Positions 2,801 to 25,801 of a stretch of DNA of 26,429 nt are shown piece after piece (within the stretch, counting starts at the first letter, position 1; each line of letters begins with the position of its first letter). Made by a program: the position numbers and the translations under genes. The notes beneath the pieces are model-generated. The model did not search any database and had not been told where the DNA came from. It worked only from the letters and a program-made list of their open reading frames with translations. The DNA is from a virus. The stretch spans positions 1-26,429 of IMG/VR virus record IMGVR_UViG_3300041809_003457. One strand, given 5' to 3'.

Positions 2801-3240
2801 CACTGCGAATTACTAGTTGGACTTATCCCAGTGGAAGACGATTAGCCGGTTTTCTTCCCCTTTCTCCAAGCCAACTGGCCAAAGCCAGTTCCCCTTGCCT
2901 CCTCTCCTGATTTCTGTGTTGGGTCCCGCCTTTTCCTGGACAAGTTAGCCAAAAACTGGCCAAGGTCTGCCTCCATCCACACGGGGGCGGTTGTGTTGGT
3001 CGGAAAGAACTGGCTTCAAAAGGAAACGCAATCTTGGTAGCGACCATTCGAGAACTTCGAGTGGTCTCTTTCGGCTCTCTGGTCCACCTTCTCGCCATGA
3101 GCGGCATTCGGACGGGCGTTTTGGTTCGGACCATCCCCACGAATCACGGTCGCTTCGACCAACGGACCCTTTAGAAAGTCGAGGCCCAACGGACCGACCA
3201 CTCCCAACGAACAACCCCATTACAAAAATTGGAACGAAAG
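2801..3240. other. Non-coding interval with small hairpins
   Basis: About 440 bases without a convincing gene. Overlapping open frames on both strands here share no codon bias or motifs. Two inverted repeats are visible: AACTGGC-CAAA-GCCAGTT at 2873-2890 and a 10-bp stem GACCATTCGA / TCGAGTGGTC with a 5-base loop at 3042-3066. The 'AACTGGC' word recurs near 2953 and 3009. The region must hold the promoter of the 3241 gene, but I cannot assign boxes. Confidence 0.5.
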
Positions 3241-4722
3241 ATGGCAACCTACCTCAAAATCGAGAACCCCGGCGTCTGCCCGACCGAAGGTTTCATCCTC
3301 CTTGGTGCCACCAGCAAGCGGCTCGCCGACAACGACTCGCCCTACTGCATCGGGCAATTCGGCAGCGGCAATAAGCACGCCGTCAATGTCCTTCTGCGGG
3401 CCAAGCTCTTTCCCGTCGTCTTCTGCGGCAACCACAAGCTGGAGTACGGAACCAAGCCTGGCAAGATGAAGGCCCTGGAAGGCGAGACCGGCTACAACCG
3501 TGTGGTCGTCAAGCATGGCGGCACCGACGAAGATGGGACCAGCGTCACCTACACCGAGGAACTCTCCCAAACGGATGAATACGGGGCAATCGACTGGAAT
3601 TGCCTGGGGATGGCCTTCCGTGAGTTCGTCAGCAACGCCATCGACGCCGCCATCGCCGTCAATCGGCAGGCCAACGGCAACGTCAAATGGCCGTGGGATG
3701 GGGTGAAGATCGAGTTGGTGCCGGAGGAGAAGGTAAGGGCCAAGCGGGGATGGACCCGTGTCTTCGTTCCGGCAGACAACGAAGAAGTCATCCGATTCTT
3801 CGCCAACCTCGGAAAATGGTTCCTTCACTTCTCGGAGCCGGAATCCATCACTGACACCATCCTCACCAAGAAGTCCCGGAATCTGGACCCTGGTTGCAAC
3901 ACGGCCGTTATCTATCGGCGTGGCGTGCGAGTGCGGGAAATCGAGCAGTATTCGTCCGAAAGCCTCTTCGACTACAACCTGAACGATTTGCGGGTGGACG
4001 AATCGAGAAATGTGGATGACTACCAGTGCCGCAATGCAGCAGCAAGGGCGATGGCGAAGGCGTCTCCCGAAGTTCTCGCAACCTGGATTCGGTCGTTCCG
4101 TAGCGGCACCCCCTATTGGGAACACCAGTTCGGCGGTTATGAGTTGAAGCCCGCCTGGGGTGAGAGCCAGGAAGATATCGCCGCCCGCAAGGCCAGTTGG
4201 AACAAAGCTCTCGAATTGGTCGGGGATAGCGTCGTGCTGTCCGCCAAGGATGGACCTGTCCAAACCCTTGCCCGCAAGGGCTACGACGCCCTCGAAGTCC
4301 CCGAAACCGTGGTGCGGGCGGCAGAGGAATATGGCTGTCCTACGCCATCGAAGATTCTCAGTGCCGACGAGTTGGACGGTCGGGAATCCTTCGATCCCAC
4401 GCCCGATGCCATCGCCGCTCTCGATTGGGTTTGGGAACAGGTGGACCGGGCCGGGATGACCGACGGCAAGGCCAAGCCCCCGATCCGATGCTACCGCAAA
4501 GTCATGGATGGCGGGACTGTGGTTAGGGGATTCCTTCGGGACGGAATCGTCTACATCAACGAGGACTTGGCGACGGGGACCAGCGTGGAACTGCGGCAAA
4601 CCGTGCTGGAAGAGGTCGCCCACTACCTGACCAACTCGAAGGACGAAACAAGGGACCTGCAAGATTGGGCGTTCAAGCTGGCGGTGAAGGTGGCGATGGC
4701 TCGGACCGAACAGTGCGTGTGA
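3241..4722 (+). CDS. GHKL-type ATP-binding protein with apparently permuted motifs and a degenerate zincin-like C-terminus, 493 aa
   Basis: Residues 8-43 carry a 'ENPGVCPTEGFILLG' stretch followed by IGQFGSG, which closely resembles the G1 and G2 motifs of Hsp90-type GHKL ATPases (Hsp90 has DTGIGM ... IGQFGVG). An N-box-like REFVSNAIDA lies later, at residues 127-136 (E128, N132, D135). In known GHKL ATPases the N-box comes first, so the order here suggests a circularly permuted ATP-binding fold. The C-terminal part has VLEEVAHYLT, a HExxH-like helix with the first His replaced by Glu, followed by a DLQDWAF segment. ATG 3241 after GGAACGAAAG is preferred to a GTG-type start at 3229. It heads the plus-strand cluster. 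Substrate and role are unknown; ATP binding is an inference. Confidence 0.65.
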   Translation: MATYLKIENPGVCPTEGFILLGATSKRLADNDSPYCIGQFGSGNKHAVNVLLRAKLFPVVFCGNHKLEYGTKPGKMKALEGETGYNRVVVKHGGTDEDGTSVTYTEELSQTDEYGAIDWNCLGMAFREFVSNAIDAAIAVNRQANGNVKWPWDGVKIELVPEEKVRAKRGWTRVFVPADNEEVIRFFANLGKWFLHFSEPESITDTILTKKSRNLDPGCNTAVIYRRGVRVREIEQYSSESLFDYNLNDLRVDESRNVDDYQCRNAAARAMAKASPEVLATWIRSFRSGTPYWEHQFGGYELKPAWGESQEDIAARKASWNKALELVGDSVVLSAKDGPVQTLARKGYDALEVPETVVRAAEEYGCPTPSKILSADELDGRESFDPTPDAIAALDWVWEQVDRAGMTDGKAKPPIRCYRKVMDGGTVVRGFLRDGIVYINEDLATGTSVELRQTVLEEVAHYLTNSKDETRDLQDWAFKLAVKVAMARTEQCV

Positions 4723-5010: not shown

Positions 5011-5127
5011 GTTTCCCTCGTTGGGCTGGCCTTTCTCGTCGGCTACCCCCGCTTTGTCATCACGTCGGCTGGACCACCTGACTTGGTTGTTCCTGACAAA
5101 CCAACCACACGAACGGGAGACAGCCAA

Positions 5128-6039
5128 ATGGCAAACCAAGAAGAACTGCGGCGTGGCATTACGGATCAGATCGTGGCATCGTTGAAGAGCGGCGGCATCC
5201 CGCCCTGGCGAAGGCCGTGGGGAATCAGTCCCAATAGTGGCTTTCCCGTCAATGTCGTGTCAAAGCGGCGGTACAGCGGAGTAAACGTTCTGCTGCTCCG
5301 GATGGCGGCGATGACTCACGGCCACACCAGCAAATACTGGGCAACCTTCAACCAGTGGACCGAGATGGGTGGTCGTATCCAACGTCGCCCCGATTCGGTC
5401 AAGCCGGGACACTGGGGCCAGTCCATCGTGTTCTTCACAAGGGTTACGAAGAAGGAAGTGGACCCCAGCACTGGCGAGGAAGAGGAAACCTCGTTCCCCC
5501 TCCTCAAAACCTACACGATCTTCAACGTCGATCAAGTCGATGGACCGTTCGACCATCTGCGGGTGAAGGAGGAGTCGCTCACGGTCAACACCACCTTCGT
5601 GGATTACCAGCCCGTCGAAGACCTGCTCAACGCCGTGGGTGCCGATATTCGCTTCGGTGGGGACCGAGCTTTCTACAACCGTGCGGGCGACTACATCCAG
5701 TTGCCGCCCAAGCATCGGTTTGAGAAGGAACACGAATACTATGGAGTCGTGGCTCACGAAGTCACGCATTGGTCTGAGAGTCGCTGCAACTGGACCGGCT
5801 CGTATCCCGAGGGCGAACTGCGGGCGGAAATTGGCGGTGCGTTCCTCCTGGCCGCACTCGGTGTTCCCCAAAGCGACGACTTGTCGAACCACAAAGCATA
5901 CGTTGCCAACTGGTTGGAAGCCTTGAACAAGGACAGTCGATTCATCTTTCGTGCGGCGTCGGCTGCCAGCAAAGCCGCCGACTATATCCTTTCGTTCTCT
6001 CTCCAACCTGAACCGGACCTGGTCGAGTTGCCGTTCTGA
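5128..6039 (+). CDS. ardC: ArdC-like antirestriction protein with zincin-type peptidase domain, 303 aa
   Basis: The N-terminal half (residues 1 to about 130) has the ArdC/DUF1738 layout: an amphipathic 'ITDQIVASLKSGGIPPWRRPW' opening, then 'NVVSKRRYSGVNVLLL' and 'KYWATFNQW' blocks, known for single-stranded DNA binding in this family. The C-terminal half is the MPTase-type zincin domain: HEVTH at residues 210-214 followed by W, and the third ligand candidate E234 in ELRAEIGGAFL. Family members protect incoming plasmid DNA from restriction during transfer. All motif residues are present, so it is probably active. ATG 5128 follows GGGAGA; a GTG-type start at 5083 is less likely. A strong terminator follows. 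Identification is confident; the target nuclease is not known. Confidence 0.9.
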   Translation: MANQEELRRGITDQIVASLKSGGIPPWRRPWGISPNSGFPVNVVSKRRYSGVNVLLLRMAAMTHGHTSKYWATFNQWTEMGGRIQRRPDSVKPGHWGQSIVFFTRVTKKEVDPSTGEEEETSFPLLKTYTIFNVDQVDGPFDHLRVKEESLTVNTTFVDYQPVEDLLNAVGADIRFGGDRAFYNRAGDYIQLPPKHRFEKEHEYYGVVAHEVTHWSESRCNWTGSYPEGELRAEIGGAFLLAALGVPQSDDLSNHKAYVANWLEALNKDSRFIFRAASAASKAADYILSFSLQPEPDLVELPF

Positions 6040-8222: not shown

Positions 8223-8501
8223 GTGCCGATTTTTGAGATTGAGCAGTACGAACTCCACATCCTGACGCACAGAGTTACCGGAGACGACGAAACCGACGCC
8301 TTGGTCAAATTCTTCCAAGGCATTGAGGGGGAGGCAGTCTCCTTTGAATTTGTGGGCATTCCCAGCGACTATGGGATGAGCTTGGGCGAGAACCGAGACC
8401 TGACGGACCGTCTGTTCGATCTGGGAATCATCAAGAGTGGCGATACTATCATCCCCAGCGTTCGTTCCATCAGGCAAGTGGACCAGCGGAGCGGATCATG
8501 A
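8223..8501 (+). CDS. Hypothetical protein, 92 aa, coupled to the RuvB-like gene
   Basis: GTG start 3 bases after the preceding stop. The opening (MPIFEIEQYELHILTHRVTGDDETDALVKFF pattern, beta-strand then helix) resembles small 'YxVxAxxxxEA' type proteins that act in phage and plasmid early regions, but I cannot name a family. Its TGA overlaps the ATG of the next gene (ATGA at 8498), which indicates translational coupling to the RuvB-like ATPase. It could therefore be an accessory protein for that ATPase; this is inference from position only. Confidence 0.65.
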   Translation: MPIFEIEQYELHILTHRVTGDDETDALVKFFQGIEGEAVSFEFVGIPSDYGMSLGENRDLTDRLFDLGIIKSGDTIIPSVRSIRQVDQRSGS

Positions 8502-9445
8502 GTGAAGATACCGAACCCATCATCTCTAGCTTGACTCAAGTAATCGGCCAAAGCAGGGCCGTCAACGTTCTTCGCACAGCCCTTGATGCCTACTTCAACG
8601 ACCGCTTCAAGACCGGCGTTGAGGGGGCCATGCCGCATATTCTCATGTGCGGACCGGGCGGCACGGGTAAGACCCTCCTAGCCGAGACCCTGAGCCGGGA
8701 GGTGTGTGCCAACAACTGCCACATTGAGCTTTCACAAAATATCGCCAATCCCCAACAGATGCAGGGATTACTCATGATGCTCGAACCGGGGGATATTTTG
8801 TTCCTTGACGAGATTCACGAGTTGAGTTCCACGGTACAGGTCTGCCTCTACCGTGCATTGGAGGAGGGCAAACTCTTCCTCACCGGGAATCGCAAGGCGG
8901 TCAGCTTGCCGCCATTCTGCCTGATCGGTGCCACGACTGACGAATATCTGCTGACAACAAGCATGAGGGACCGCTTTAAGATTCTACTTCGCCTGACCCA
9001 TTACAGCGAAGCGGAGATGACTCTGTTGATTCGTCAGCGGGCCAAACGACTCGGCTGGGCCATTGACGACACATCGGTGGGCGAACTCGCCAAGAGAAGT
9101 CGAGGTGTCCCTCGTCTCGGTGTTCGACTTCTCGATGCTGCAAAACGTGTGGCCTCTTCCGAGTCGTCCGACGTAATCGAAGCTGGGCATGTCTCTCGTA
9201 TGTTGGAGATCGAGGGCATCGATGCTCTCGGTTTCGACCTGACTGAGCAGAAATACCTGCACCTGCTGCGGGAGCATCAGGGAGCCGTTCGTCTGAACGT
9301 GATCGCCACTTCCTTGGGGTTGCCCCGGCAGACTGTGGAAATGTTCGAGCGAGATTTCATTCGGCTTGGCCTGATCGACAAGACCGAAAAAGGCCGGATT
9401 CTCACGTCGGCTGGGATCGCCCACCTGCGGACCACAACGACCTGA
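8498..9445 (+). CDS. RuvB-like AAA+ ATPase, 315 aa
   Basis: A AAA+ ATPase closest in layout to the Holliday-junction motor RuvB. Visible are Walker A GPGGTGKT (52-59), Walker B LFLDEIHEL with D104 E105, sensor-1 GATTD (144-148), the arginine-finger segment SMRDRF (155-160) as in RuvB's 'LRDRF', the 'SRGVPRLGVRLLDAAKR' sensor-2 region, and a C-terminal winged-helix part (LTEQKYLHLLREHQGAVRLNVIATSLGL). The length is slightly short of the usual ~340. No RuvA or RuvC is encoded in the window, so it would need the host RuvA or a dedicated partner. ATG 8498 has GGAG upstream and overlaps the previous stop. Probably moves branches during element recombination or replication. Confidence 0.85.
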   Translation: MSEDTEPIISSLTQVIGQSRAVNVLRTALDAYFNDRFKTGVEGAMPHILMCGPGGTGKTLLAETLSREVCANNCHIELSQNIANPQQMQGLLMMLEPGDILFLDEIHELSSTVQVCLYRALEEGKLFLTGNRKAVSLPPFCLIGATTDEYLLTTSMRDRFKILLRLTHYSEAEMTLLIRQRAKRLGWAIDDTSVGELAKRSRGVPRLGVRLLDAAKRVASSESSDVIEAGHVSRMLEIEGIDALGFDLTEQKYLHLLREHQGAVRLNVIATSLGLPRQTVEMFERDFIRLGLIDKTEKGRILTSAGIAHLRTTTT

Positions 9446-10020: not shown

Positions 10021-11010
10021 ATGCTCGGTTGCCATTGGGATCATGTTAGGAAACCGTTGAAAGCTGTGCGAAAGATGTGCGAGAACCAAGACGAAAAGTG
10101 TGCGGATTTACGCAAGAGAAGAGTCGTTATCTTGCATTCGCCTGAATCTGGGATCGTGGTGCCGAGAGAGACCACCCGCCAGGCCGATTCGGACGACCAA
10201 CTCATCGGCCTCTGGCTCCACGGTCGGCCCGACCACACCCAACGGGCGTACCGGGCCGAAGCGGACCGTTTCCTTAGTTATGTTGACAAGCCGCTACGGT
10301 CGGTCAGGCTGATCGACATCCAGAGGTTCGCCGACCATCTGGCCGAGGCCGGGCTGAAGCCGTCGTCCATCCATCGGGCATTGTCGGCGGTGAAAAGTCT
10401 GTTCGCTTTTGGCTTCCGCCTCGGTTATCTCCAGTTCGATGTTGGTCGGGCTCTTCGGATTCCCAGCTTTCGAGATGAGTTGGCCGAACGGATTCTCAGT
10501 GAGGCCGAGGTGCTGAGGATCATTTCGCTGGAACCGAATCCGAGAAATCGGGCGATTCTGCTCACGCTCTACGGTGGTGGCTTCCGGGTCTCCGAAATCT
10601 GCTCGCTGAAGTGGCGGCATCTTCAAGAGCGGGATTCGGCAGGCCAGATCACCGTCTTCGGGAAAGGTGGCAAGACTCGGACCGTCCTGATGCCGAGAAG
10701 CGTGTGGGAAACATTACAAATTTTACAACAGGATGCTTCTGCCGATGCTCCGGTCTTCAAAAGCCGGAAAAAAGGCCACTTGGATGAATCCCAGGTCTGG
10801 CGGATCGTCACCAAAGCCGCCGAGAGGGCTGGCATCGACAAGGCCGTGTCGTGCCATTGGTTTCGCCACGCCCACGCCAGCCATGCCTTGGACCGAGGAT
10901 GCCCAATTCACCTTGTCCAGGCCACGTTGGGCCACAGCAGTGTGGCCACAACGGGGAAGTATCTGCACGCCCGTCCCACCGATTCCAGCGGCAACTACCT
11001 GCCATTTTGA
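10021..11010 (+). CDS. Tyrosine recombinase, XerC/D-like, 329 aa
   Basis: Site-specific recombinase of the phage-integrase family. The N-terminal SAM-like core-binding domain is seen around 'RPDHTQRAYRAEADRFLSYV' and 'LKPSSIHRALSAVKSLFAF'. The catalytic set is complete: R189 in GGGFRVSEICSLKW, a Lys in FGKGGKTR, H279 and R282 in HWFRHAHASHAL, H305 in LGHSSV and the nucleophile Y314 in TGKYLHARP. It acts by transient 3'-phosphotyrosyl DNA bonds. ATG 10021 follows a GAAAG; the first ~40 residues are unusual and a later start is possible. It lies in the middle of the cluster rather than at an end, behind the HTH gene, so it may resolve multimers rather than integrate the element. Confidence 0.9.
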   Translation: MLGCHWDHVRKPLKAVRKMCENQDEKCADLRKRRVVILHSPESGIVVPRETTRQADSDDQLIGLWLHGRPDHTQRAYRAEADRFLSYVDKPLRSVRLIDIQRFADHLAEAGLKPSSIHRALSAVKSLFAFGFRLGYLQFDVGRALRIPSFRDELAERILSEAEVLRIISLEPNPRNRAILLTLYGGGFRVSEICSLKWRHLQERDSAGQITVFGKGGKTRTVLMPRSVWETLQILQQDASADAPVFKSRKKGHLDESQVWRIVTKAAERAGIDKAVSCHWFRHAHASHALDRGCPIHLVQATLGHSSVATTGKYLHARPTDSSGNYLPF

Positions 11011-13687: not shown

Positions 13688-14815
13688 ATGTTCGTATTTC
13701 CATCCATCCGAGCGACTTCTTCTATTCTCGTATTGCTTAGCCTGTTATGCGGAAGCGTGGCAACTTCAGCTTGGGGGCAGTCGTACACGGCGGTGGACCT
13801 GAATCCCAGTGGATATTCAGGGTCCCAAGCCTACGGTACCTCTGGCAGCCAGCAGGTCGGGTATGGCGTGATTGGAGGCGGCTACCACGCCTTGCTCTGG
13901 TCGGGCTCGGCAAGCAGCTACGTGGACCTGAATCCCAGTGGATTTACCTTTTCCCAAGCTAACGGCATCTCTGGCAACCAGCAGGTCGGGTCGGGCGGAC
14001 CTTCCAGTTTCACTCACGCCTTGCTCTGGTCAGGCTCGGCAAGCAGCTACGTGGACCTGAATCCCGGCATTGGACCGGATGAATTTTCAGAGTCCTACGC
14101 TTATAGTATCTCTGGCAGCCAGCAGGTCGGGTATGGCGTTATTGGAGGCAACTACTACGCCTTGCTCTGGTCGGGCTCGGCGAGCAGTTATGTGGACCTG
14201 AATCCCAGTGGATACGATCAGTCTTTCGCCTACGGTACCTCTGGCAACCAGCAGGTCGGGTATGGCCGAATTATTGGCGGCACCTACCACGCCTTGCTCT
14301 GGTCGGGCTCGTGGTCCAGTTACGTGGACCTGAATCCCAGTGGATGTACATATTCCGAAGCTCTTGGCGTCTCTGGCAACCAGCAGGTCGGGTATGGCCA
14401 AATTATTATTGGCGGCAACGACCACGCCTTGCTCTGGTCGGGCTCGGCAAGCAGCTACGTGGATCTGAATCCCAGTGGATTTACATCTTCCCAAGCTAAC
14501 GGCATCTCTGGCAACCAGCAGGTCGGGTATGGCCAAATTATTGGCGGCAACGACCACGCCTTGCTCTGGTCGGGCTCGGCAAGCAGCTACGTGGATCTTC
14601 AGAGTTTCCTTCCGGAGAACTACAATTCGTCCAGAGCCCTGAGCATTGACGCCAACGGTGACATCGTTGGTTCTGCCTACAACACACTCACAGGTCAGAC
14701 TGACGCCATTCTTTGGACGCCTGTCCCCGAACCCGCTTCCCTTACGCTCCTCGGCACCGCAATACTGGGACTCGGCACGTTTGCGTTCGTTCGTCGCCGT
14801 CTTCGGGCAGCGTAG
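13688..14815 (+). CDS. PEP-CTERM sorting-domain protein with HAF-like repeats, 375 aa
   Basis: Secreted protein. Residues 1 to about 30 are a signal peptide (hydrophobic SSILVLLSLLCGSVATSAWG). The body consists of six repeats of 43-47 residues of the form YVDLNPSG...S.A.G.SG.QQVGYG....HALLWSGSASS plus a diverged seventh, similar to HAF repeats that form beta-propeller-like folds. The C-terminus (about 346-375) is a full PEP-CTERM signal: VPEPAS, a hydrophobic helix and RRRLRAA. Such proteins are cleaved and sorted by exosortase, usually into extracellular matrix. A GGAGGAGAAAG ribosome site precedes ATG 13688 and a terminator follows. No exosortase is in the window; the gene is monocistronic. 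Confidence 0.92.
   Translation: MFVFPSIRATSSILVLLSLLCGSVATSAWGQSYTAVDLNPSGYSGSQAYGTSGSQQVGYGVIGGGYHALLWSGSASSYVDLNPSGFTFSQANGISGNQQVGSGGPSSFTHALLWSGSASSYVDLNPGIGPDEFSESYAYSISGSQQVGYGVIGGNYYALLWSGSASSYVDLNPSGYDQSFAYGTSGNQQVGYGRIIGGTYHALLWSGSWSSYVDLNPSGCTYSEALGVSGNQQVGYGQIIIGGNDHALLWSGSASSYVDLNPSGFTSSQANGISGNQQVGYGQIIGGNDHALLWSGSASSYVDLQSFLPENYNSSRALSIDANGDIVGSAYNTLTGQTDAILWTPVPEPASLTLLGTAILGLGTFAFVRRRLRAA
13793..14600 (+). repeat. In-frame tandem DNA repeats of the PEP-CTERM gene
   Basis: The motif GTGGACCTGAATCCCAGTGG and its variants recur at 13793, 13922, 14051, 14192, 14324, 14459 and 14591. The steps of 129, 129, 141, 132, 135 and 132 bases are all multiples of three. Long stretches such as CCTTGCTCTGGTCGGGCTCG are identical between units, so units can be gained or lost by recombination without breaking the frame. 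Confidence 0.9.
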
Positions 14816-17174: not shown

Positions 17175-17274
17175 GACCGTTTTTTGACCCGTTTTTGCTG
17201 GGCAACTGGTGGGCGAAATGCTGGGCGAATTGTAAAAACTTAGTTTTCATAAGTCGTGTCCATAAAACTACTTA
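17175..17274. repeat. Short direct and inverted repeats at the integrase 3' end, possible attachment region
   Basis: Two 12-base direct repeats, GACCGTTTTTTG (17175) and ACCCGTTTTTGC (17187), are followed by three about 10-base copies GCTGGGCAA (17197), GGTGGGCGAA (17208) and GCTGGGCGAA (17220), i.e. near one helical turn apart. Then come ACTTA / TAAGT / ACTTA words at 17238, 17250 and 17270. The last lies at the integrase stop. The arrangement resembles arm-type and core sites of a phage attachment region. Confidence 0.45.
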
Positions 17275-18717
17275 CGATTTCCTAAATACATCCCTGCCGG
17301 GCGTACTTTCGTATTCCGTCGCACCGCGTCGCACAACGTCGTCTAAGTCGGCAACTCGCAAAGCGTTAGGAAAAGGGACGCTGGCGGTCCCCCTTGTTCC
17401 GTCGTCGCACTCCGTCGCATCGGACGGCACTTCTTCGCGCCCCAACTGCTGCGCTTTGTGCTGCGCCCCCTCGCCCGTGGCGGTGGCGGAAGCGTCCGTC
17501 GTTCCGGTAGCTCGCAACGCTTTTGGCTCATCGGATAGCATGTTCGGGAAGCGGGCCACGGTGGCGGCGTCCTGGCCCGGGAACAGGTGGCCGTACGTAT
17601 CCATCGTCAAGGTGATCGTCGAGTGCCGCATCACCGATTGCACTGCCTTCGGGTGAGCCCCGTTCGTCGCCAGCCACGCGCCGCAGGTGTGCCGCAGGCT
17701 GTGGAAATCGAACACCTCTCCCTCGTGGCTTAGGTTAGCCAAGAAGTCACTCTGTTGGCGACGGGTGTGTTCTTTGGGATCGCGTCGAGCGGCCTTGATC
17801 CACTCTCGTCGGGTCTCAGCCAAGTCAGCCCGAATCATAGCAGCCACTTCAGTCTCCTCGGGCATCGAGAAAACCGGTGCCTGGGGAGCCTTGGTCGCGA
17901 TGTGGGCCAGAAGTTCTCGTGCCAGCGCTGGCTGGATGTATTGTCGTGCGTCCTTTCGATTCTTTGTCGACCCTGCCTTGCAGGTGACAAACGGCTGATC
18001 GCCGTCCAAGAACAGCCGTCCGCGACTCAGACTTCGCAACTCGGATGACCGCAATCCGGTCTGGATGGCCACGGCGTATAATAGCAAACGTTCTTTGGCC
18101 GCCATCCCAAATCGTTCAACCCAATCGGCTGATGTGGCCCGCAACCACTGCCATTCTTCGGGCAGAAGCATCCGTCGCTCCCGGCGGCGATCGGCCTTAG
18201 GGTTCGGCTTGGTGACCGAGACCAGCGGATCGCGCGGCAACTTGTGGTGGGCCGACAGCCACTTTGTAAACCCCTTGACCGCAGTGAGGTAGGCGGCGAT
18301 GGTGCGGGCTGAGAGGCCGTCTTCCTTCAGTTTCCCAGCGTACCGGTTCACGCCATCGGCCGTGATATCGGAGACCTTGGTGAAATGGGCCCATTCGCAG
18401 GTTGCACGGACGCACTCGACAGTTCGCGTAATATGTTTCGCGCTGCGGCTTCCTGCCCCCATCTTGGCCTCGTAATCCTTTAGATGCGATTCTATCGAGC
18501 GCCGAGACTGTTCACAGATCGCATCGAGTTCGGGATCAACCACCCCGTCTCGGCGCAGAGCTGCATCCGCCTCTAACTTGGCGACGATCCGTTCCGCCGT
18601 GGCCTTATCCGTAGTCCTCGCACTCCGGGACTGACGCTTGCCTTTGTGGTCGAAGTACGAGATGTAATAGCGGCCTCCTCGCTTTCCCTTCCCACCTCGT
18701 TTGAAAATCGTTGCCAT
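17272..18717 (-). CDS. int: Tyrosine integrase of phage type, 481 aa
   Basis: The N-terminus (about 15-60) is a KGKRQSRSARTTDKATAERI segment typical of DNA-contacting arms, then a SAM-like core-binding domain (about 85-160, with LSARTIAAYLTAVKGFTKWL). The catalytic residues are R223 (TGLRSSELRSL), K252 (STKNRKD), H339 and R342 (FHSLRHTCG), H365 (MRHSTITLTM) and the nucleophile Y375 (DTYGHLF). A tail of about 100 residues follows the Tyr, an unusual length that I associate with planctomycete integrases. The stop lies within the repeats at 17270. It is distinct from the recombinase at 10021. It is in line with the terminase genes upstream and very likely drove insertion of the phage-derived region. 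Confidence 0.92.
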   Translation of the reverse strand: MATIFKRGGKGKRGGRYYISYFDHKGKRQSRSARTTDKATAERIVAKLEADAALRRDGVVDPELDAICEQSRRSIESHLKDYEAKMGAGSRSAKHITRTVECVRATCEWAHFTKVSDITADGVNRYAGKLKEDGLSARTIAAYLTAVKGFTKWLSAHHKLPRDPLVSVTKPNPKADRRRERRMLLPEEWQWLRATSADWVERFGMAAKERLLLYAVAIQTGLRSSELRSLSRGRLFLDGDQPFVTCKAGSTKNRKDARQYIQPALARELLAHIATKAPQAPVFSMPEETEVAAMIRADLAETRREWIKAARRDPKEHTRRQQSDFLANLSHEGEVFDFHSLRHTCGAWLATNGAHPKAVQSVMRHSTITLTMDTYGHLFPGQDAATVARFPNMLSDEPKALRATGTTDASATATGEGAQHKAQQLGREEVPSDATECDDGTRGTASVPFPNALRVADLDDVVRRGATEYESTPGRDVFRKS

Positions 18718-18785: not shown

Positions 18786-18992
18786 TCAACTGCCTTGGCG
18801 GAGAGAACTCGCCCGTTTCGGGAACTGACGTAATCGTCTGGCCAGTTCCCGCAGTTGCGCTGCCTTCTCTACCCCGTACTTTGGTTTCTCGCAAATCATG
18901 CAGTGCTGACCGTCCAAGACATCCCACCAGATCATCAGGCTGCCACATTTTGGACAGGGATCAGGTGGTTCGATGCATTCTTCCCACGGCAC
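18786..18992 (-). CDS. Zinc-ribbon protein or 3' remnant of a larger gene, 68 aa
   Basis: CPKCGSLMIWWDVLDGQHCMIC (residues 14-35; CxxC-x16-CxxC) is a zinc ribbon followed by a basic helix (KAAQLRELARRLRQF). The frame starts with GTG inside the end of the large terminase gene, without a ribosome site, and is open for 10 more codons upstream (DTDSDVV before PWEE). I think it is the tail of a gene that once lay upstream of the integrase and was cut when the terminase gene was joined to it. It could still be translated by coupling, 31 bases into the overlap. Confidence 0.5.
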   Translation of the reverse strand: MPWEECIEPPDPCPKCGSLMIWWDVLDGQHCMICEKPKYGVEKAAQLRELARRLRQFPKRASSLRQGS

Positions 18993-20373
18993 GACGTCTG
19001 AGTCGGTATCCCTGCCCGAAGGCGACTACCTCGAAACCGTCCCCCTCCAATTGTGTGGCCAGTTGGGTGGCATTCCAGCGGTCGATGGCGATTTCGCGGA
19101 TCTCGTATCGCTGGCCGAGTTCGTTGATCTTCTGCCGGATGCGGTCGTAATCGATCACCTCGCCGGGCGTGGCGGCCACATAGCCTCCGCGGATCCAGGC
19201 GGTGTACGGCACGCGGTCCCGCCGCTCACGCTGTCTTGCCCCTTCCTCGGGCACCCAAAACAGCGGCAGCACATCGTAGCGGTCCTCGTTTGGAAAGACG
19301 AGGACCAGGGCGGTAATGTCGGTCGTGGAAGAGAGATCCAGCCCAGCGTAGCATGGGCGTCGTTCCAGGTTCCCCGTCGGCGCCGCACAGGCGTCCCACT
19401 TCTCCAGGCTCAGCCAGCGGACCTCCTGCTCGGTCCATTGGTTGAGCCGATAGCGGCGGAAGGAGTTTTCCTTCGCCGGTGACTCCTGGGCCTCGCGGCA
19501 GTCCTCGGCAAACTGCTCGGGACTGATTGTCACGGCAAAGCTGGGGTTGGCCTTCCGCCAAACCTCGGGATTTGTCCAGTCGTCCTCCGCGCCGGCCGCC
19601 GCGATGAAGGGCAAGAACGACGAGTCTTCGATCGTGCCGTCGAGCACCTTCTCCGCGTAGTCGTGCTGCTCCCAGCAGATCGAGTGGCGATCGAAGCCGG
19701 CGGTGGTGATGCTCAGGTGCAACGGCTGCCGCCGCGCGGCGCCGGTGTAACGCAGGGTGTCCCACAACTGGCGTGTTTTCTGGGCGTGTAACTCGTCGAT
19801 CAGCACGGCATGGGCGTTGAGCCCTTCCTTGGCTGGCACGTCCGCCGACAGGGCCTTGTAGAAGGAGTGGCTGCGGGGCATGACGATTCGTTTGGTGGAG
19901 CGGACCACGTTAAGCCGTGACGACAACTGCGGCGAGACCTCTACCATGTTGGCCGCCTCGTTGAAGACGATCGACGCCTGGTCGCGATCCACGGCAGCGC
20001 TATAAACCTCCGAGCCCGGCTCCCCGTCGGCGGCCAGCAGGTACAGACTCAGGCCGGAGAAGAGGGCCGACTTGCCGTTCTTCTTGGGCACTTCGATGTA
20101 TGCGCGGCGATAGCGTCGGGTGCCGTCGGCCCGCTTCCAGCCGAACAGCGGGCCAACGACCTCGCGCCACTGCCAGTCGAGCAACGCGAATGGCTGCCCG
20201 GCCCATTGCCCCTTGGAGTGGCGAAGGAACTTGGTGAAGAACGTCCGCACCCGCTCCGCAGCCTGCACGTCAAACCGACAGCCTTCGAGGACTGCCTTCT
20301 CGTCCCGTGGGCCGCGGATCCACTCGCTCCAACCTTCACGCCTGGCATTGCTAAGACGTCGTGTCTGCCGCAT
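18961..20373 (-). CDS. terL: Phage terminase large subunit (Terminase_1 type), C-terminally truncated, 470 aa
   Basis: Packaging ATPase/nuclease. The ATPase part has Walker A EVPKKNGKS (94-102), Walker B LIDE (191-194) and the coupling motif SITTAG (221-226). The RNase H-like nuclease starts normally with D346 in GLDLSSTTDITAL and D431 in IAIDRWNATQL, then 'LEGDGFEVVAFGQG'. From residue 456 (about position 19008) the sequence no longer fits the family, whose last ~80-100 residues with the third acidic ligand should follow; instead 15 Arg-rich residues lead to the stop. The nuclease is therefore probably inactive. ATG 20373 overlaps the terS stop (TGATG). An ORF extension upstream to 20730 is shadow of terS. 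Strongly suggests a deletion junction. Confidence 0.85.
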   Translation of the reverse strand: MRQTRRLSNARREGWSEWIRGPRDEKAVLEGCRFDVQAAERVRTFFTKFLRHSKGQWAGQPFALLDWQWREVVGPLFGWKRADGTRRYRRAYIEVPKKNGKSALFSGLSLYLLAADGEPGSEVYSAAVDRDQASIVFNEAANMVEVSPQLSSRLNVVRSTKRIVMPRSHSFYKALSADVPAKEGLNAHAVLIDELHAQKTRQLWDTLRYTGAARRQPLHLSITTAGFDRHSICWEQHDYAEKVLDGTIEDSSFLPFIAAAGAEDDWTNPEVWRKANPSFAVTISPEQFAEDCREAQESPAKENSFRRYRLNQWTEQEVRWLSLEKWDACAAPTGNLERRPCYAGLDLSSTTDITALVLVFPNEDRYDVLPLFWVPEEGARQRERRDRVPYTAWIRGGYVAATPGEVIDYDRIRQKINELGQRYEIREIAIDRWNATQLATQLEGDGFEVVAFGQGYRLRRRAVGRMHRTT

Positions 20374-20837
20374 CAGCCGGTCTCCAGGAATGCGTCGAAC
20401 TCGTCCGTGGCCCGGGGATTCCCCGGTACCCGAATCCGGCTGCGGCTGGACGGGGTCAGTCCGAACTCGACCATGAACTTCCGCATCGTCTCCAGGGCCT
20501 GATCGGCGACCGTCAGGTACGGCGACTTCATGGGAAAGTTCTTCAGCGGCGACTTGACGATCGTGCCCAGCCGCCGCACTTGGGCTTCGGCCGCCACCCA
20601 GCGACTGTAAGCCACGCAGTAGGCCGCCAACGCAGCCCGATCGGCCCGTGTCAGCAGTCCCATGTCCTCTAGCACCTTGGCCATGCGGAACCACTCCGCT
20701 CGGGCTTCGTCGTCCAGAAAATCCGGGCACTCGGGGATCTCGGCTTGCACCTGCGGTTCGTGGTCATTCAGCGATCGCTTGCCGGGATTACCATCGAGGA
20801 TTTTCAGTGTCGTCGGTTTCGGCTTACGTCCTCGCAT
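20373..20837 (-). CDS. terS: Phage terminase small subunit, P27 family, 154 aa
   Basis: Matches the P27 family: start MRGRKPKPTTLKILDGNPGKR, then 'CPDFLDDEARAEWFRMAKVLEDMGLLTRADRAALAAYC' helices and the terminal 'FGLTPSSRSRI' motif typical of these proteins. It recognises phage DNA and loads the large subunit. Length is usual for the family. A clean AAGGAGCAGAT precedes ATG 20837. It overlaps terL by a TGATG. It appears intact even though its partner terL is truncated. Confidence 0.9.
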   Translation of the reverse strand: MRGRKPKPTTLKILDGNPGKRSLNDHEPQVQAEIPECPDFLDDEARAEWFRMAKVLEDMGLLTRADRAALAAYCVAYSRWVAAEAQVRRLGTIVKSPLKNFPMKSPYLTVADQALETMRKFMVEFGLTPSSRSRIRVPGNPRATDEFDAFLETG

Positions 20838-23755: not shown

Positions 23756-25801
23756 TCATCTCCTGTGGTAGGCATTACTGTTCCTGCTTTTGAGCCAGTC
23801 CATAACGGTCATCGCCTTTGGTTCGCTTCCCTCTCCCGAGGGAGCCAAACGAAAGCCGAGATAATTCCCCGCTGCACTTCCCAACATCCCACAGTCGAGC
23901 CAATGATTGGGGCCATGCTTGACCCAGGTCTCCACGAGCCCCTTGTCCGCTTCCATCATTTGCTGCCGCTGTTCGCTGGCAAAATGCCGCGAGAGTTTGT
24001 TGTGCATGTCCCGCATCATTTTGTCCGTACCGGGGTCGTAAAGCGTAATCGCCCCCGGCTGCGGTTTCCCAGCATCGTCGGTCGGCGGTATCTGCAAGCC
24101 GTGCTGCAGCCGCAGCTTGTAGTGGTCCGCATCGATCGTGACCAGCCAGCTCTGGTATTCCCGCACTCTGGAAATGAACCAGCGGTCCCCGATCCGCCGG
24201 ATGGTGTTGGTCATTCTTGCCGGGGCGTTGTACTTCATCTTTTGCACTTGGGAGGCGCCGCGGCCGATGCAGGCCATCCAGCGGCCGCCAGGGAATGTGC
24301 CCGACTCCCGGCAAAACTGGTGGATCACCCCGGGCAGATGGCCAGCGTCAATCCAGACCGCATCGGGCACCCGGTTGCCGCTGATTCCCTCGACCGGCCA
24401 CCCCTCCTCAACCGTTTCGCGGAACTCGCGGAGGGCCTGCAAGATGGCCACTTCCTCCGCCAGGGCGTCGGAATGCACTTCGATGACCCCGTAATCGGGA
24501 ATGTGGATCCGCTTGTTGGCCCGAAAGCACAGGCACAGATACCAGGACTGCCACTTGCCGATGTCCACCCCGATGACGAACTTCTCCGTGTCGGCCGGCA
24601 GCAGCTTGTGGGGAAGGTTGTCTTTCCGCTTGGCCACGATCTTGGGGTCCAGCGGGGCGCCCTCGACCAATTCCGGTTGGAAAGGCAAGCACCAACGAAA
24701 CTGCCGGAGCGCCTTCTCGGCGTTCTCCTGGTCGGCCGCATTCTTCCCCTGCCACTCCTCGGCGGCCAACTCGGCCGCGTCGGTAAACAGGTTGTGGAAC
24801 CCCGACCAGCGAAAGCCCAGCGTTCGTGTCGGCGGAAGCGAACCGACGATCTTGCCTTCAGGCGTCACCTCCTGGCCGCGATGGAGGAGCAGGGCCCGCC
24901 GGTTCATGTCCAGCCGCTCCCCTTCCGTAATCTGCCGTCCGCAAGCCGGGCAGGCCCAGAAGGCCGCCAACCGCGCCGCCTCCTCGCTCTCCGCGTCCTG
25001 CCAGCCGACGAGCTGCTCCCGTTCCATCTCCACCCACGCCGCACAGTGGGGACAGGGAGTCAGTATCCGTGAGGCCGAGCCTTGCTCGTAATAGCACCAC
25101 GTGGGGTTCTCCTTCGTGGTGACCGTGCACTCCTGGTAAACTACCGCCCGGTCTTTGTAGGCTTTGGTCCGCCCCTCCAACTGCTTGAGCTTGTCCGCCT
25201 CCAGGGAAGTCTCCGCCGCCTTGGCGAAATCGTCGGTCTCGGTCACCACCAGCACGCGAGAGGTAAACGATGCCCGCGCCTTATCTGACCCGCCGCCGGT
25301 CATGAACCGCAACGTGGCCCCGTTACGCAGCCGCACCGAGGAAACCCGCCCGCCCCGAGACCCGCCCCCGCGCAGGGGCAACAGCTCCCGGTACCGCGTC
25401 CGCTCAATCACCGGCAACAGGTCCTCGAACCACTTGTCGCTCACCGTGTCGAGCGAAGGCACGCCGCACACGACCGTCTCCTGTACCTCGAATAGGTGAT
25501 AGAGGATCGGAATCACGAATCCCAAGAGCGACTTGCCGCACTGCTGCGGCCCCGTGACGTTCCGCCGCCGCCAGTACAGATAGCCCGTCACCGGGTCGCG
25601 ACGGTCCTCCTCGTCCAGCAGCAGCCGGGTGAACGGCTGTCGCAGACAATTGAACCGCCGGCCCTCATACGGGCCCGTCGGCAGGGTGATCTCCTGCTCC
25701 GCGAACTCCCGCATCGTCCTCAGCACCGGGGGCACGCTCTGTCGGAGCAGCCGAATCGCCATCTGCCGCGTCTGGATCGCTTCCCAATTCACTGCCAACA
25801 T
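23756..25801 (-). CDS. GpA-family phage terminase large subunit, 681 aa
   Basis: Lambda GpA-like large terminase. ATPase motifs are Walker A GPQQCGKS (84-91) and Walker B VLVVTETDDF (183-192). A zinc pair CPHC (250-253) and CPAC (284-287), usual in GpA, follows. The nuclease domain has D413 in VIGVDIGKW, D485 in VWIDAGH and D636 in HWLDCG, so all three acidic positions are present and the enzyme may be active. The assigned ATG 25801 lies 137 bases inside the upstream gene; internal ATGs at 25762 and 25714 are alternatives. It is unrelated in subfamily to the terL at 18961 and should package with the Nu1-like protein encoded just upstream. Confidence 0.9.
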   Translation of the reverse strand: MLAVNWEAIQTRQMAIRLLRQSVPPVLRTMREFAEQEITLPTGPYEGRRFNCLRQPFTRLLLDEEDRRDPVTGYLYWRRRNVTGPQQCGKSLLGFVIPILYHLFEVQETVVCGVPSLDTVSDKWFEDLLPVIERTRYRELLPLRGGGSRGGRVSSVRLRNGATLRFMTGGGSDKARASFTSRVLVVTETDDFAKAAETSLEADKLKQLEGRTKAYKDRAVVYQECTVTTKENPTWCYYEQGSASRILTPCPHCAAWVEMEREQLVGWQDAESEEAARLAAFWACPACGRQITEGERLDMNRRALLLHRGQEVTPEGKIVGSLPPTRTLGFRWSGFHNLFTDAAELAAEEWQGKNAADQENAEKALRQFRWCLPFQPELVEGAPLDPKIVAKRKDNLPHKLLPADTEKFVIGVDIGKWQSWYLCLCFRANKRIHIPDYGVIEVHSDALAEEVAILQALREFRETVEEGWPVEGISGNRVPDAVWIDAGHLPGVIHQFCRESGTFPGGRWMACIGRGASQVQKMKYNAPARMTNTIRRIGDRWFISRVREYQSWLVTIDADHYKLRLQHGLQIPPTDDAGKPQPGAITLYDPGTDKMMRDMHNKLSRHFASEQRQQMMEADKGLVETWVKHGPNHWLDCGMLGSAAGNYLGFRLAPSGEGSEPKAMTVMDWLKSRNSNAYHRR

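Follow-up and report, generated by a model that had tools for sequence, protein, structure and literature searches.

The gene and its product

The window analysed here is a stretch of 26,429 nucleotides from a virus, comprising the whole of IMG/VR record IMGVR_UViG_3300041809_003457. The gene of interest encodes a protein of 493 residues, and its ATG at position 3241 is backed by relatives that share the same start site. Translation of 3241-4722 recovers all of the motifs picked out in the initial annotation, namely NPGVCPTEGF (residues 9-18), IGQFGSG (37-43), REFVSNAIDA (127-136) and EEVAH (457-461). The protein very probably consists of a permuted GHKL ATPase, an S5-like transducer, a middle domain and a C-terminal zincin-like domain. 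The features are listed below with the evidence for each, the fractions referring to an alignment of 83 relatives.

3241..4722, plus strand: whole gene, 493 aa (translation, family alignment, structure model, relatives)
3247..3273, plus strand: G1 strand TYLKIENPG, residues 3-11 (strand 3-10 in the model; N9 in 75/83, G11 in 76/83)
3349..3369, plus strand: G2 motif IGQFGSG, residues 37-43 (starts helix 43-53; G38, G41 and G43 in 83/83)
3550..3723, plus strand: proposed relocated block, residues 104-161 (profile grid, hhalign, secondary-structure match between two models)
3619..3645, plus strand: N-box REFVSNAID, residues 127-135 (R127, E128, N132 and D135 in 83/83)
3751..3771, plus strand: GT-type strand, residues 171-177 (T172 invariant; directly precedes the transducer)
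3907..4008, plus strand: S5-like transducer core, residues 223-256, with DESR at its C-terminal end (R256 in 83/83; aligns to LDRDR of the sister family)
4018..4356, plus strand: middle alpha/beta region, residues 260-372 (model; lies inside the swapped alignment to the sister protein L192)
4360..4710, plus strand: predicted zincin-like domain, residues 374-490 (VIA-align Z 7-8; Foldseek match to 4jiu)
4609..4623, plus strand: EEVAH at the HExxH position, residues 457-461 (E457 in 74/83)

The relocated block is made up of strand 104-111, the N-box helix 122-143 and strand 156-161, its edges being placed to within 10-20 residues. No Pfam or NCBIfam model matched the target protein, and scans of the target and its relatives with Pfam, NCBIfam and PADLOC gave nothing convincing for the permuted family. 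A 480-aa open frame overlaps the gene in antisense (window 3220-4662, minus strand); it looks like an artefact of codon bias rather than a gene.

A phage family with a shared motif order

The initial annotation noted that the G motifs lie ahead of the N-box, and this proves to be a property of the family, since G2 precedes the N-box in all 83 aligned relatives. Residues G38, G41, G43, K45, R127, E128, N132, D135, T172 and R256 are identical throughout (83/83); with motif residues invariant and the order always the same, the order cannot be due to chance. The number of residues upstream of the G1 position has a median of 7 and never exceeds 17, so that in no member could an N-box be hidden there.

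The protein had also been described as one that could not be placed in any described family. This was not borne out: it belongs to PHROG 8203, a family sister to PHROG 6077. The PHROG 8203 profile matches the target over residues 4-271, corresponding to the ATPase and transducer, with an E-value of 1.6e-19, and it is matched by all 83 aligned members. The family comes mostly from phages and is annotated as being of unknown function. Relatives that are 39-50% identical occur in virus contigs and planctomycete genomes. By profile scan, viral contigs yielded 179 relatives and genome contigs 23, and the sequences compared here come from the best 80 loci per scan; relatives on plasmids were looked for and not found.

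Related genes are present in about 70-80 isolate phage genomes, including those encoding YuA gp29 and the homologue of Bordetella phage CN2. YuA gp29 and its Rabinowitzvirinae relatives have the same motif order as the target, but are shorter (392 aa) and diverged, with approximately 20-25% identity. Some deposited copies are labelled HATPase or ATP-binding protein, and one 'hydrolase, metallopeptidase', so parts of the identity have already been guessed by annotators.

A relative with 47% identity (L099:1712-2713) comes from a Methanoregulaceae MAG, on a contig of 3.4 kb that is possibly misbinned and belongs to a phage. The target model also matches BFVD entry A0A3Q8Q6V3, a 'putative viral structural protein' of Sulfolobales Beppu filamentous phage 1, with an E-value of 7.6e-11; on the strength of this model match, the permuted family may reach archaeal viruses.

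A sister family in the canonical order

PHROG 6077 was reached via distant matches in isolate phages. Its members start, for example, with 'KLSITENYVSHWSWWQGARELMQNAID', followed by 'ISRGGVVPVSGLLMGVSTKRDDDSKIGKFGEGLKVGLLVLVREG'; these are the peculiar segments of the target family, arranged in the canonical order. The N-box is ahead of G2 in 53 of 53 non-redundant members. Examples are L192, from a 435 kb phage contig, a Vibrio phage 1.100.O protein annotated as 'histidine kinase-like ATPase', and phiTE_019. A scan of viral contigs gave no close relatives of the Vibrio protein. One member, L153, passes the Pfam model HATPase_c_3 with 27.0 bits against a cut-off of 25.

The two families have in common the G1-lid-G2 segment, a W-x-x-REL-xxN-xxD block, a transducer with a conserved arginine and a related middle region. 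They differ in the location of the N-box block, which is N-terminal in PHROG 6077, as is canonical for GHKL proteins. Because a closely related phage family keeps the normal order, the rearrangement can be read directly.

Profile comparisons after block moves

In its native order, the target-family profile aligns to that of PHROG 6077 using hhalign with a score of 152 and a pairwise E-value of 1.5e-19, leaving the N-box unaligned. When residues 103-165 are moved to the N-terminus, the score rises from 152 to 222. A grid of block moves gave the best results with the start of the block near 85-105 and its end near 140-170. By comparison, 150 random block moves gave a median score of 134, and the few that exceeded 170 placed all or part of the G1/G2 segment behind the N-box. 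The grid and the random moves together demonstrate that it is the order-restoring moves that help.

Comparison was also made with a reference GHKL set, drawn from ten genomes and containing Hsp90 and MutL among other GHKL proteins. The Hsp90 profile aligns to only 22 columns of the native-order family, with a score of 38.6, and cuts that leave the motifs in the wrong order score 38-44; with residues 112-165 put first, the score is 61.9 and the probability 96, with N-box, G1 and G2 collinear (all of these scores are pairwise and do not correspond to database E-values). With MutL profiles the block swap brought little improvement, and the case therefore rests on the Hsp90-type and sister profiles. 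In this permutation-aware comparison the reordered profile aligns both the N-box and the G motifs with Hsp90, and the reading as a GHKL protein holds.

Predicted structures

The AlphaFold model of the target, built on the 83-sequence alignment, has a pLDDT of 94.4 and a pTM of 0.87. In order from the N-terminus, the predicted elements are strand 3-10 (G1), helix 16-19, the lid, helix 43-53 (G2), strands 59-62, 65-78 and 81-95, then strand 104-111, helix 122-143 (N-box), strands 156-161 and 171-177, and helix 181-188. The AlphaFold model of L192 has strand 3-9, helix 18-36 (N-box), strand 40-45, strand 48-54 (G1), helix 60-63, the lid, helix 81-92 (G2), strands 96-101, 104-113, 118-127 and 134-140, and helix 144-151. 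The two lists match one to one once residues 104-161 of the target are placed first.

The L192 model aligns with TRAP1, HSP90B and GyrB from residue 4-7 onward, with Z of 11-12, and matches HSP90 in Foldseek with an E-value of 8e-8. In the target, by contrast, residue 1 aligns to residue 80 of HSP90B, 165 of TRAP1 and 54 of MORC2, so that the protein starts past the N-box of Hsp90; the Z of about 7 given by VIA-align for the target alone is within the chance range, and the evidence is the contrast with its sister L192. A Foldseek search of the PDB with the target model gave no match below an E-value of 0.001, Hsp90 and MORC appearing only in VIA-align. The predictions thus point to a fold that is related to the Bergerat ATPases, with its elements in a rearranged order.

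Nature and history of the rearrangement

The normal GHKL order is block A (strand, N-box helix, strand), block B, the GT strand and the transducer. In the target, block B (G1 strand, lid, G2 helix and three strands) would come first and block A second, while the last ATPase strand, of GT type, and the transducer keep their usual place. The circular permutation suggested in the initial annotation therefore stands as regards the rearranged motif order, but not as a permutation of the whole domain: what is found instead is a swap of two N-terminal blocks within the ATPase domain. We assign a probability of roughly 0.87 to this reading, in which a GHKL (Bergerat-fold) ATPase with an S5-type transducer, a middle region and a zincin-like part has had two N-terminal ATPase blocks exchanged.

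A whole-domain circular permutation would have moved the N-box block to the end of the ATPase domain, with strand 171-177 as part of the moved block. Moving residues 103-180 does give a score of 214 against PHROG 6077 in hhalign, and the exact block edges are not sharp in the grid. However, the grid scores drop once the moved block takes in 171-177, T172 aligns with the GT strand of Hsp90, and the two models correspond one to one only if 171-177 is left in place, all of which makes a permutation of this kind very unlikely. It is scarcely credible that the motifs are there by chance, or belong to another fold that merely resembles GHKL. The missing Pfam match and the weak Foldseek result for the target would fit such a view, but the native-order homology to PHROG 6077 (score 152, pairwise E 1.5e-19) extends from G1 to the transducer, and members of PHROG 6077 are GHKL proteins both by Pfam and by structure.

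If A-B had been duplicated in tandem and the first A and the second B then lost, the two N-terminal blocks would have changed places. No intermediate carrying block A twice was present among 136 sequences (from the best 80 loci per scan). In a tree of 136 sequences, which were reordered before tree building, a single branch with an SH-aLRT of 100 separates the two orders. The permuted order is taken as derived, because Hsp90, MutL, gyrase and PHROG 6077 share the normal order. Judged from these sequences, the data need only one rearrangement, which would have taken place in phages and started from the normal order.

The predicted nucleotide site

The N-box motif ExxxNxxD is present on helix 122-143, with E128, N132 and D135 invariant, and the G2 motif GxxGxG is likewise complete, with G38, G41 and G43 invariant. 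In place of the G1 motif DxGxG, with its adenine-contacting aspartate, there is only NxG. The position of the aspartate is occupied by Asn in 75/83 and by Ser or Thr in 7/83 of the permuted members, and by Ser, Asn or Thr in all 53 canonical-order sisters. As the loss is common to both families it probably predates the rearrangement, and it leaves the adenine specificity uncertain. The order of GHKL motifs is N-box, G1, G2, whereas all 83 members have G1, G2, N-box, and the target is thus a rearranged GHKL variant and no ordinary member. Its homology to accepted GHKL proteins runs via PHROG 6077 (L153 by Pfam, L192 by its Z of 11-12). The conserved basic residue of the transducer is represented by the invariant R256, which aligns to LDRDR of the sisters and is a candidate for the gamma-phosphate arginine.

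The C-terminal domain

The C-terminal EExxH segment had been described as an HExxH motif lacking its first histidine. This was confirmed: EEVAH is found at residues 457-461, and the fold predicted around it looks zincin-like. The segment is conserved across the 83 relatives (E457 in 74/83, E458 in 75/83 and H461 in 76/83) and is therefore no peculiarity of the target copy; D468 is also strongly conserved. The HExxH expected of a zincin is absent from the target, and among permuted members only L084 and L086 have it. In VIA-align, residues 374-490 give Z of 8.0 with serralysin, 7.8 with abylysin and 7.7 with jannalysin. Foldseek matches the domain to 4jiu with a probability of 1.00 but an E-value of 0.084.

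In L192 (L192:2501-3814, on the 435 kb contig), a canonical-order GHKL domain is fused to a zincin-like domain with an intact HExxH. The protein has HEVAH at the EExxH position, and after the swap its alignment with the target family covers 386 columns. No recognisable C-terminal HExxH is present in the other sisters compared. As canonical-order L192 carries the same domain with HEVAH, the zincin-like part is probably older than the swap, and the change from His to Glu probably later. In L053, L088, L089, L091, L092 and L095 the EExxH segment is absent or the C-terminus different, which suggests repeated loss or replacement of the C-terminal domain in the permuted family.

Genomic neighbourhood

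Among 107 neighbouring proteins from about 40 loci there are four Erf-like annealing proteins, three SSB, two proteins of the exonuclease VIII type, two AAA_24, two RusA and two RNase H proteins. In YuA-like phages, the gene follows the polymerase and primase genes. These neighbours suggest, weakly, a role in early DNA metabolism, as such genes are common in that region of phage genomes.

Within the window, an ArdC-type anti-restriction protein with an intact HExxH metallopeptidase domain is encoded at 5083-6036 and a RuvB-like ATPase at 8498-9442. In the planctomycete loci L096, L097 and L109, too, the permuted ATPase has ArdC homologues and RuvB-like genes nearby. ArdC was considered as a relative of the C-terminal domain and rejected (profile match probability 1.6). 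Two tyrosine recombinases and two large terminases are encoded at 10021-11010, 17272-18717, 18961-20730 and 23756-25801, the two terminases being of different families, phrog_9 and phrog_15. Between the recombinases, at 13688-14815, lies a gene for a protein that contains several similar repeats and has a C-terminal end resembling PEP-CTERM. It may be that the 26,429-base record is made up of two elements separated by host DNA.

A possible mode of action

Since the canonical motif residues are kept, with the exception of the G1 aspartate, the site, once folded, should differ little from that of other GHKL proteins. E128 would act as the base, N132 would be on Mg, G2 and the lid would bind the phosphates, and R256 would come in from the transducer. 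The conservation of E128, N132, G2 and R256 argues for an ATP-driven switch, and the protein is probably an ATP-gated switch in early phage DNA metabolism. ATP binding would close the lid and a dimer, and the transducer would relay the signal to the zincin-like domain, whose role would be to act on or bind a partner in that metabolism.

Ahead of the N-box, Hsp90, GyrB and MutL have a free N-terminal arm that their subunits exchange. In the target, the corresponding strand would be tethered at both ends and could not be exchanged in the same way, so that ATP-driven dimerisation would have to differ. We would put at even odds the fuller proposal that one ancient block swap in phages gave rise to a large clade in which the N-box strand and helix are internal, there is no free arm, and closure is coupled to the zincin-like domain by a different dimer mechanism.

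In the 53 canonical members, and in every permuted member that has a residue at this position, the G1 aspartate is replaced by Asn, Ser or Thr. This would be compatible with a fold that has no ATPase activity and senses a nucleotide, uses one other than ATP, or survives as a structural remnant. We regard a fold of this kind as unlikely: the Glu and Asn of the N-box, the glycines of G2 and R256 are all invariant, which is not how a remnant would behave. Somewhat more can be said for an active metallopeptidase in which Glu serves as a metal ligand and the ATPase gates proteolysis of a host or phage protein, given that E457, E458, H461 and D468 are strongly conserved, that the fold matches are metallopeptidases, and that L192, L084 and L086 have HExxH. 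Even so, this is doubtful, because EExxH would be an unusual zinc site, peptidases usually become inactive when the first His is lost, and the motif is entirely absent from some members.

Comparison with known systems

In the well-known GHKL ATPases the motifs run N-box, G1, G2, and profile searches are built on that assumption. This probably explains why a large phage family has no Pfam name, and it shows that permuted members can escape family libraries. In the open-access papers searched, no account of a GHKL or Bergerat ATPase with permuted motifs was found; a 2021 survey of jumbo phages names GHKL for topoisomerase and rIIA only, and a 2008 survey of MORC proteins does not mention permutation. 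With permuted and canonical sister families both to hand, it can be asked how the ATPase core tolerates rewiring, and whether GHKL function needs N-terminal strand exchange. L192 would be well suited to the question whether a peptidase is gated by the ATPase. The analysis also gives genes of laboratory phages, YuA among them, a probable identity as ATPases.

T4 rIIA is a phage GHKL protein (PMC7824862), with its N-box RELITNMID at 46 and G2 IGGFGLG at 116, and unlike the target it has the canonical order. Although some sisters are annotated as RIIA, it was rejected as the family to which these proteins belong, the hhalign probability being 1-4 to either family. The ATPase plus transducer modules of Hsp90/HtpG/TRAP1, MORC and GyrB resemble the target in the N-box, G2, the ATPase and transducer fold and the transducer arginine. 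They differ from it in having the N-box first, a G1 aspartate and a free N-terminal arm, and in having no zincin-like domain.
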